From the NCBI RefSeq assembly GCF_016592435.1, contig NZ_AP014545.1, positions 1,116,001-1,180,000 on the forward strand: a stretch of 64,000 nt of DNA. The letters run 5' to 3'. Below the pieces are notes generated by a model. That model did no database searches. It worked only from the letters and a program-made list of their open reading frames with translations, and was not told where the DNA came from. This DNA is from Amphritea japonica ATCC BAA-1530. Its GTDB lineage: Bacteria > Pseudomonadota > Gammaproteobacteria > Pseudomonadales > Balneatricaceae. This document shows, piece after piece, positions 23,383 through 26,565 of the stretch. How positions within the stretch are numbered: the first letter of the stretch is position 1; the number at the start of each line of letters is the position of its first letter. The position numbers and the translations under genes are program-made.

Positions 23383-24063
23383 TTAGGGAAGCGCGAAATA
23401 GAACCCTTCCGCTTTATTGATCCCCCGAAGTGATATCAAAGGTTCATCTTCAAACAGTATTGTATCGCCCGCTTCCAGAACGCTACCGTTAATTTCAAGC
23501 TCTCCCCTCACAAGGTAGAGAAAGCCGTTCTCTGATGCTGGTAAGCCACAACTGGTATGGTGTAAGCGGAACTGATGCATCTCCACGTTTTGTTCAATCT
23601 GTAGTGAATCTTCGCGACCGTCTGGTGAAATAATCAGTTGAATGCCTTCTCGGCTGAGAAGTTTGCGGGATTGATAGCGGGGGGTATTACCGGTTTTTTG
23701 CGGAATAACCCAAAATTGAAGCATTTTCAGGCTGCTCTCCAGAGAAGCGTTTTGCTCGGTGAATTCAGCCCCTGTGCCAGTGCTCAGTAATTGTAGGCTT
23801 CTGCCTTGCAGTAGTTTGCGATTACCCAGAGAGTCGGTATGCAGGTTCTTGCCATCAAGAATGACAGATATAACTTCCATATCCTGATGTTTGCTGGGAT
23901 CTATCGCCGCGCCAGGCTGTAACAAGTCTTCATTCGCCACTCGTAATTCAGATATTCCCATCCAGTCTGGATCGAAATAGCTGCCAAATGAGAAAACATG
24001 TCGGGATTCAAGCCAGCCGAAATGGGCATATCCCCGGTCTGAAGCACGTTTTATTCTGATCAT
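23383..24063 (-). CDS. Pirin-family protein with an altered metal site
   Basis: A 226-residue bicupin of the pirin/YhhW (quercetinase-like) type. Family features: DRGYAHFGWLESRHVFSFG at 9-27, then DMEVISVILDG and HTDSLGN in the first cupin, and LVRGELEINGSVLEAGD in the second. In pirins the first cupin reads H-P-H-R-D-M-E; here the equivalent stretch is P-S-K-H-Q-D-M-E, so the first His ligand is Ser while the second His and the later His remain. Iron binding may be weakened or lost. The frame opens at a TTG at 24075; ATG 24063 matches the usual family N-terminus. Neither start has a clear ribosome site. Confidence 0.82.
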   Translation of the reverse strand: MIRIKRASDRGYAHFGWLESRHVFSFGSYFDPDWMGISELRVANEDLLQPGAAIDPSKHQDMEVISVILDGKNLHTDSLGNRKLLQGRSLQLLSTGTGAEFTEQNASLESSLKMLQFWVIPQKTGNTPRYQSRKLLSREGIQLIISPDGREDSLQIEQNVEMHQFRLHHTSCGLPASENGFLYLVRGELEINGSVLEAGDTILFEDEPLISLRGINKAEGFYFALP

Positions 24064-24162
24064 GAAGGTTCGCAAATGGAGACTGTTGATCTCTTTTTTA
24101 CCTTGTCAGCACCGTACTGTAAACATGGCCGTTAGTTTTAACGGTATTGTTATCAGAGTAAT

Positions 24163-24948
24163 ATGCTGATTTTTAGGGGGAAATATCTGTGGATCTGCTC
24201 AGCTCTTTTAGTTTGTCATTCTGGCTTTTGGCCGGTTTTGGCCGGTTTTGGCGTGTTAATAACCGGTATTTCCAAGTCGGGTTTTGCCGGAGGAGTCGGG
24301 GTGATCAGTGTACCACTGATGTCTCTCTATATCGGACCGGTCCAGGCGGCAGCGATAATGTTGCCGTTACTGATTCTGATGGATTATTTTAGCGTTCGTG
24401 CCTGGTGGACGCATAAACGAAATGACCTGCTAAAGATAATGGTACCCGGAGCGATGCTGGGGATTTTTACCGGGTATCTGCTATTCGATTATCTTGATGA
24501 CGATATATTGCGGCTATTGTTGGGGGGGCTGTCGATCTGCTTTGCCCTTTGGGGTTTATTCAATGGCGCAAAATCAGGTGAAGGAGGCTCGCCGTTTGTC
24601 GGCTATCTATCCAGTTCTGTTGCAGGCTTCACCAGTTTTATTGCTCACGCCGGTGGCCCGCCCATGAACTTCTATTTGATTCCGATGAAACTGCCCCGGG
24701 AGCAATTCCTCGGTACGGCGGTTGTGTTTCTTGCCATTGTTAATCTGCTTAAGCTGGTGGCCTATGGAGCGTTGGGGCAGATCAATACTGATAATCTTTT
24801 AATCGGTCTGGTGCTGGCTCCCTTAGCTTGGGTCGGTATCCGTATAGGCCTGATTATCCACAAGATGCTGGATGATAAGTTGTTCTATCGTATTATTTTG
24901 ATAATGCTTCTGATCGTTGGGATCAAACTGATCGCTGACGGAATCTGA
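24163..24948 (+). CDS. TauE/SafE (TSUP) permease with frameshifted start
   Basis: From residue 26 on this is a clear TSUP membrane protein (LAGFGVLITGISKSGFAGG near 26-44, HAGGPPMNFY near 163, about eight hydrophobic segments), a family that exports sulfite, sulfoacetate or related anions. The N-terminus is odd. GTG 24189 has a perfect ribosome site (AGGGGG, 8 bases upstream) and starts a fitting N-terminus, VDLLSSFSLSFWLLAGFG, but in another frame. Removing one copy of the tandem decamer at 24231-24250 joins that start exactly to the rest. As sequenced, only the ATG at 24163 is in frame, giving an unrelated 25-residue leader. The gene is probably inactive, weakly expressed or phase-variable, or the read is wrong. 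Confidence 0.8.
   Translation: MLIFRGKYLWICSALLVCHSGFWPVLAGFGVLITGISKSGFAGGVGVISVPLMSLYIGPVQAAAIMLPLLILMDYFSVRAWWTHKRNDLLKIMVPGAMLGIFTGYLLFDYLDDDILRLLLGGLSICFALWGLFNGAKSGEGGSPFVGYLSSSVAGFTSFIAHAGGPPMNFYLIPMKLPREQFLGTAVVFLAIVNLLKLVAYGALGQINTDNLLIGLVLAPLAWVGIRIGLIIHKMLDDKLFYRIILIMLLIVGIKLIADGI
24231..24250 (+). repeat. Tandem 10-bp duplication causing a frameshift
   Basis: GCCGGTTTTG occurs twice in direct succession inside the 5' end of the TauE/SafE gene. Ten is not a multiple of three, so the second copy shifts the frame. Confidence 0.9.
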
Positions 24949-25020
24949 TTGTACTTTTTTAGCTCTTTTTTTAAATCGACTGCTAAGCTTAATTCACTGG
25001 ATATTTTGAAGGAGTGAGTT

Positions 25021-26565
25021 ATGTCTGCAAAGCCTGTGGTTGCTGATAATAAGCCTGTTAAAGTAAGTTTGAGTCAGGGAGAAGAGTCTTACTTCTGCAC
25101 CTGTGGCCGTTCATCTAAGCAACCTTTTTGCGATGGATCGCATGCTGGGACAGGATTCACTCCTAAAGCATTTAAAGCAGAAACAACCGGAGATGTCTGG
25201 CTCTGTGCGTGTAAGCATACGGCAAACTCCCCATACTGCGATGGTACTCATAAGCAGTTTGATGCAACCGTTGTTGGCCATGAAGGGCCCGGTATTATTA
25301 CTAGTGATAATCAGGCTCCAGCTGCGGTAAATACGGCAGAGGAGTCCACTGTCGAATTTATTCACCAGCTGGCACAGGACGGAATAAAAGGAATCGGTTC
25401 TCATGGTCCAATGGGGGCTATGGGGGTTCCACGTAACCAGTTGCCAGCCTGGGATGATATTCAGGTGATGGTGGCTCAGATGGCCCGTAAACCGTTACAG
25501 GAAACCGTGCCGGTAGGCACCTCATTGGTGATAGGTCCTGAGGCCAGGAAACCGTTAGAACTGGATATTCCCCTGTTTGTGTCGGATATGAGCTTTGGAG
25601 CACTTTCAGAGGAGGCTAAAACTGCGCTAGCGAAAGGTGCTGAATTAGCCGGTACGGGTATCTGTTCCGGTGAGGGAGGCATGTTACCCGAAGAACAGCT
25701 GGCAAACTCCCGGTATTTCTACGAACTGGCTAGTGCTAAATTTGGTTACCGGGAAGAGTTATTAACCCGGGTGCAGGCCTTTCATTTCAAAGGCGGGCAG
25801 GGAGCGAAAACCGGTACCGGTGGCCACCTGCCTGCGAGTAAAAACGTGGGTAAAATCTCTCAGGTTCGGGGTATTCCTGAAGGGCAAGATGCGGTGTCTC
25901 CTCCAACCTTTAGTGATCTGGATAATGTTGCCGATTATGCCCGCTTCGCCGATCGGGTGCGGGAGATCAGCGGGGGTATTCCGATTGGTTTCAAACTTAG
26001 TGCAAATCATATAGAGAGAGATGTTGAGTTCGCCGTGAAAGCGGGGGCAGACTATATCATTCTTGATGGTCGTGGCGGCGGTACGGGGGCTGCACCACTG
26101 CTCTTCCGAGATCATATCAGTGTGCCGACGATACCGGCGTTAGCGCGTGCCAGACGTTGTCTGAATACCAATGGAGCCAGCGGACGGGTCACTTTGATTA
26201 TTACCGGCGGACTGAGGGTCCCCAGTGATTTTATAAAAGCGATGGCACTGGGCGCCGATGGTATAGCGGTGGCTAATAGCGCAATGCAGTCGATCGGCTG
26301 TGTGGCCGCTCGTATCTGTAATACCAATAACTGCCCTGCTGGTATAGCAACCCAAAAAGCAGATCTGCGTCAGCGGTTGAATGTAGATAAGTCAGCCGCT
26401 CAGCTAGCTAACTTTATGACCGGATCAGTACATCTGATGCAGGTGATGGCCAGAGCGTGCGGGCATAGTCATCTGAGTCAGTTCGATATGGGAGATCTGG
26501 CAACCTGGAATCGGGATATGGCGTATCTTTCAGGCGTTGCTTATGCAGGAACAACCCCTCTCTAA
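25021..26565 (+). CDS. CDGSH iron-sulfur domains fused to a glutamate synthase-like FMN domain
   Basis: A 514-residue protein. Residues 15-90 hold two CDGSH-type clusters: FCTCGRSSKQPFCDGSH and CACKHTANSPYCDGTH, each with the three Cys and one His expected to bind a 2Fe-2S cluster. From about 130 the protein is a glutamate synthase alpha-type barrel: DMSFGALSEEAKTAL, GEGGMLPEE, FKGGQGAKTG, DGRGGGTGAAP, and CNTNNCPAGIATQ, which carries the cysteines of a 3Fe-4S cluster. There is no amidotransferase domain, so glutamine-dependent glutamate synthesis is unlikely; electron transfer or ammonia/other donor use is possible. ATG with GAAGGAG upstream. It follows the TauE gene by 72 bases on the same strand. 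Confidence 0.88.
   Translation: MSAKPVVADNKPVKVSLSQGEESYFCTCGRSSKQPFCDGSHAGTGFTPKAFKAETTGDVWLCACKHTANSPYCDGTHKQFDATVVGHEGPGIITSDNQAPAAVNTAEESTVEFIHQLAQDGIKGIGSHGPMGAMGVPRNQLPAWDDIQVMVAQMARKPLQETVPVGTSLVIGPEARKPLELDIPLFVSDMSFGALSEEAKTALAKGAELAGTGICSGEGGMLPEEQLANSRYFYELASAKFGYREELLTRVQAFHFKGGQGAKTGTGGHLPASKNVGKISQVRGIPEGQDAVSPPTFSDLDNVADYARFADRVREISGGIPIGFKLSANHIERDVEFAVKAGADYIILDGRGGGTGAAPLLFRDHISVPTIPALARARRCLNTNGASGRVTLIITGGLRVPSDFIKAMALGADGIAVANSAMQSIGCVAARICNTNNCPAGIATQKADLRQRLNVDKSAAQLANFMTGSVHLMQVMARACGHSHLSQFDMGDLATWNRDMAYLSGVAYAGTTPL

Follow-up and report, generated by a model that had tools for sequence, protein, structure and literature searches.

A permease gene with an altered start

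The window, that is, the whole 64-kb stretch of DNA analysed here, carries on its plus strand the body of a TauE/SafE permease gene with a short tandem duplication close to the conserved start of its coding sequence. The genome with the duplication, that of a marine bacterium, is a single contig of 3,833,046 bases. The features discussed below, with Shine-Dalgarno abbreviated as SD and open reading frame as ORF, are as follows.

24163..24948, plus strand: ORF of 261 residues that begins at ATG 24163, where the ribosome site is weak, and joins a different N-terminus of about 26 residues in frame to the TauE body
24175..24180, plus strand: SD-like AGGGGG, 8 nt before GTG 24189; SD pairing −9.3 kcal/mol
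24189..24392, plus strand: ORF of 67 residues opened by the conserved GTG start; its first 18 residues or so resemble the family, and the rest is frameshifted up to a stop
24226..24252, plus strand: tandem array of TTTTGGCCGG with a period of 10 and 2.7 copies; all 12 close relatives compared have one 10-bp copy fewer
24231..24250, plus strand: two adjacent GCCGGTTTTG copies (24231-24240 and 24241-24250), those named in the preliminary description
24253..24948, plus strand: conserved, open body of the TauE/SafE permease (PF01925), at 90% identity with the nearest of the full-length relatives
24295..24770, plus strand: span of the window (476 bp) deleted in the homologue of genome G014, from the alignment with G014

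The array is perfect and occupies codons 13-22 counted from GTG 24189. No other perfect, non-trivial tandem duplication in the 64-kb window has a unit of 10-20 bp, and the presence of this one is more than chance would provide, the number expected from 20 first-order Markov simulations being 0.05. A one-copy version of this stretch would hold a 7-bp direct repeat (TTTTGGC, CGG, TTTTGGC) at a distance of 10, and a strand that slipped from one TTTTGGC half to the other in replication would come out exactly 10 bp longer. The versions of this 7-bp repeat in 11 relatives are less perfect.

The body downstream of the array is open for 232 codons. The 261-residue ORF matches PF01925 at 108.1 bits (gathering cut-off 32.6), across positions 4-237 of the 237 in the profile, and the TauE protein of L032, one of the two nearest relatives, scores 113 bits. 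In this match, and in having full-length relatives that are 75-90% identical, the gene resembles other members of the TauE/SafE family; it differs from them in that its conserved start is out of frame. The TauE proteins of the window and L032 gave no NCBIfam match at E values up to 0.001, and no relative was identified by sequence in the PDB at E values up to 0.1.

The preliminary description placed the best ribosome site at GTG 24189, out of frame with the permease, and this is borne out by SD pairing that is much stronger there than at ATG 24163 (−2.8 kcal/mol, at a distance of 14 nt). Ribosomes starting at GTG 24189 would run to the stop at 24392 and release a 67-residue peptide, presumably useless. 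Other routes into the body were considered and set aside. Among internal starts, SD pairing is poor at TTG 24238 (−1.5) and at GTG 24253 (−3.3) and good at GTG 24301 (−9.5), but a protein begun at the last of these would lack the first transmembrane segment (TM1) and the conserved GISKSG stretch. A return to the gene by programmed frameshifting would require a +1 shift, and no site of the classical +1 type was seen when the sequence was judged by eye against the motifs known for such shifts. A promoter scan of 24040-24280 detected none. A palindrome in the leader, GCCGTTAGTTTTAACGGT at 24128-24145, appears terminator-like in a scan that found one such element with 0.3 expected.

The protein read from ATG 24163 keeps the FW and LAGFGVL parts of TM1, with one additional residue between them. 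The hydrophobicity of its TM1 is 1.82, and values in 10 relatives range from 1.63 to 2.33. An AlphaFold2 model of this ORF, built with 18 sequences, has a mean pLDDT of 63.7 with residues 1-18 poorly predicted, and is too weak to judge TM1.

The start region in close relatives

Relatives were collected in two ways. A search of 57 genomes, including the window's own, gave a match in 41, and a scan of named genomes yielded 139 loci, the best 80 of which were kept. Ten of these 80 are at 75-90% identity, nine being titled Amphritea and one Oceanospirillales bacterium. Together with L004 these ten (L032-L041) make up 11 distinct close relatives; L002, L003, and L005-L011 duplicate nine of them. 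Start regions were compared for 26 of the 31 loci from the 57-genome search (L001 is the window itself) and for 17 of the best 80.

All 11 distinct close relatives, at 75-90% identity, have a single copy of the 10-bp unit, and align with the window across a 10-column gap. A twelfth relative, G014, in which the gene is partly deleted, has a 10-base gap at the same place in a pairwise alignment. Relatives of a phase-variable gene would be expected to keep the repeat tract, and none of the 12 close relatives with sequence at this point has the tandem copy. Near the start, no perfect tandem copy of 7-30 bp was found in the 10 close relatives scanned. Two more distant loci, L045 and L046, have a 9-bp in-frame tandem copy, CCGCCGTGC, just before the anchor of the comparison and near the same part of TM1.

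An in-frame start codon is aligned with GTG 24189 in each of the 11 relatives, 51 bases before the anchor (GTG in seven, ATG in four), and the N-terminus read from GTG 24189 is family-like, as had been proposed. Three of the relatives (L037-L039) have an additional in-frame ATG or GTG 12 bases upstream, and several have others still further up; that the genes of the relatives start exactly at the position of GTG 24189 is suggested by its conservation and by SD pairing. At the position of ATG 24163, nine of the 11 have ATGCTG, in a frame that is never that of the gene and that closes after 7-80 codons, and two have no ATG. A conserved N-terminal start in frame with the body is thus found in 11 of 11 close relatives, and not in the window, where the ancestral frame is broken as in a pseudogene with intact relatives. 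These comparisons uphold the earlier proposal that a 10-bp tandem duplication breaks the TauE/SafE start. Relatives combining two copies with an N-terminus in the frame of ATG 24163, which would have told against it, were looked for, and all 11 share neither property.

Further TauE sequences were noted in these genomes. The two nearest full-length genomes have a second TauE copy at another place, 66% identical (G004:C221:2310-3005 and G012:C11:147507-148202), and the window's genome has only one further TauE match, at 25% identity. A distant homologue (about 41% identical) at L113 (G021:C162:91000-92400, at about 798) is frameshifted and split over two frames.

The same locus in G014 and G008

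Two genomes bring evidence on this locus that is new relative to the preliminary description. On the opposite strand of its contig, at the locus that corresponds to that of the window, G014 (L112, G014:C166:1-2600) has a TauE homologue with an internal deletion of 476 bp, a length not divisible by three. The edges of the deletion are alike in the window (GTCGGGG and GTTGGGG). Further along, the G014 gene has an in-frame TAG, and its TM1 carries a V-to-E change; the gene has one copy of the 10-bp stretch, and TTG at the position of ATG 24163. The lesions in the window and in G014 differ, and are therefore independent. G014 is a draft genome, 75% complete and in 290 contigs, and the deletion could be partly an assembly fault.

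The neighbours of the gene in G014 are the same as in the window, with protein identities of 95% for the pirin-like, 86% for the HAD, and 92% for the CDGSH gene. Sequence similarity between the two is uneven. The leader of G014 equals that of the window at 123 of 128 bases, compared with 111 of 127 for L032, and an additional leader base of the window is common to G014. Taken together, the non-coding leader (24061-24188) and the gap after TauE (24949-25020) are 96% identical. The genes are at 80-89% DNA identity, the 3′ part of TauE being the lowest of the coding stretches compared (80%) and the neighbours at 82-89%; the exception is the first part of TauE, with 93% over 96 of 106 bases. In a tree of the pirin-like gene G014 joins the window (support 0.994), which is contradicted by the CDGSH tree, where it falls outside a group of the window, L032, and L033 (support 0.96). 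Local recombination is a possible explanation for both the conflict between trees and the uneven identity. If the leader of G014 and the window is shared by descent, the duplication would be later than the additional leader base.

In G008 (L122, G008:C17:92300-98500; 1552-1746), a stretch of 193 bases separates the matches to the pirin-like and CDGSH genes, and it holds no credible match to TauE. This absence could be original rather than a loss. The CDGSH gene of the window (25021-26562) encodes a fusion of a CDGSH iron-sulfur domain with a glutamate-synthase-like domain (PF09360 and PF01645), and adjoins TauE in several relatives.

Constraint on the body and the fate of the gene

Conservation of the body was assessed from substitutions. 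The dN/dS ratios of the window against its two nearest relatives, L032 and L033, are 0.087 and 0.106, and L032 against L033 gives 0.038. Against L034, L036, and L040 the window gives 0.042-0.058 and L033 gives 0.035-0.058, with synonymous sites near saturation in these comparisons. Of 61 residues invariant in 17 relatives, 60 are kept, the exception being a change of L to I at residue 228 of the 261-residue form. By the dN/dS ratios the TauE body shows purifying selection. Since the body is conserved, the lesion is either recent, or incomplete or bypassed, with product still made.

Amino-acid changes were also polarised, at positions where four outgroups agree. On the window branch and its sister branch they number 9:2 with L032 as sister and 10:2 with L033, and they mostly swap similar hydrophobic residues. 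The corresponding counts for the neighbours are 8:4 for HAD, 4:5 for pirin-like, and 5:5 and 3:3 for CDGSH/glutamate-synthase, so that the lean towards the window branch in TauE, which a dead gene might show, is smaller or absent there. A hand-worked Tajima chi-square for the 9:2 count is 4.45, nominally significant, although the counts are low and those for HAD tilt in the same direction.

Our favoured explanation is that the TauE/SafE permease gene was recently inactivated by the 10-bp tandem duplication, probably as an ordinary loss of a gene that is dispensable in the clade. Among the options offered in the preliminary description (recent inactivation, a reversible switch through repeat slippage, or an assembly error), recent inactivation is the best fit, given the wrecked state of this gene in G014 and the lack of a detectable one at the G008 locus. 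For the same reason, the gene appears dispensable in the clade, as far as these sequences indicate. Loss of function by short duplication has a counterpart in Xenorhabdus, where spontaneous tandem duplications of 26-116 bp in lrp are reported as loss-of-function mutations (PMC6786866). The likeness is that a gene is altered or destroyed by a short direct duplication within its coding sequence; the difference is that the lrp duplications arose in prolonged laboratory culture, whereas here 10 bp are found in a genome record. In literature searches of limited coverage, no paper on this locus was found, and nothing on the topic of TauE tandem duplications or frameshifts, or of phase variation in sulfite exporters.

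The upstream in-frame ATG, and the hydrophobic character of the ORF at TM1, suggest that some protein may still be made. It could even be, although the preliminary description did not consider it, that the gene works with ATG 24163 as its start, the old body then being read in frame behind a changed first half of TM1. The 261-residue ORF is open and carries the full PF01925 match, the FW and LAGFGVL elements are retained, and the body is under purifying selection, all of which would suit a functional replacement of the N-terminus. We nevertheless consider this unlikely: ATG 24163 is without a usable SD, and at its position the relatives have either ATGCTG in a frame other than that of the gene, no ATG, or, in G014, TTG. 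The frames themselves are observed. It is a quite doubtful proposition that two indels, namely the leader base also present in G014 and the 10-bp duplication present in the window only, brought the upstream ATG into frame with the permease, so that a protein still in use acquired a new N-terminus from what had been leader and wrong-frame sequence. If true, the locus would record the birth of a coding segment and not the death of a gene.

Faulty sequencing or assembly, or a variant confined to one culture, in a species that has one copy, would explain why two copies occur in one genome only and why the body looks like that of a functional gene. This is improbable, as the genome is a single contig and a relative also has a wrecked version of the gene; moreover, base-calling errors do not typically take the form of a clean 10-bp tandem copy. 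Slipped-strand phase variation typically involves a repeat unit that is not divisible by three and lies near the start codon. The 10-bp unit of the window shares both properties, and a tandem copy could in principle be lost again, which would make the duplication a reversible switch. There is, on the other hand, no positive evidence for a switch: the array has only 2.7 copies, with two full units in one genome, each of the 12 close relatives that have sequence at this place carries a single copy and no such repeat, and in two other lineages the gene is either wrecked or escapes detection. Reversible switching through loss and gain of the copy is accordingly the most improbable reading, and we give it hardly any credence.

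Recent inactivation by the duplication, the reading that we favour, has a practical consequence, in that annotation of a 261-residue protein from ATG 24163 would mask the lesion. It would also make this single locus a snapshot of gene decay within a group of related bacteria: 11 relatives have the intact permease gene, the window one with a fresh frameshift, and G014 a wrecked one, and in G008 none is detectable at the locus.
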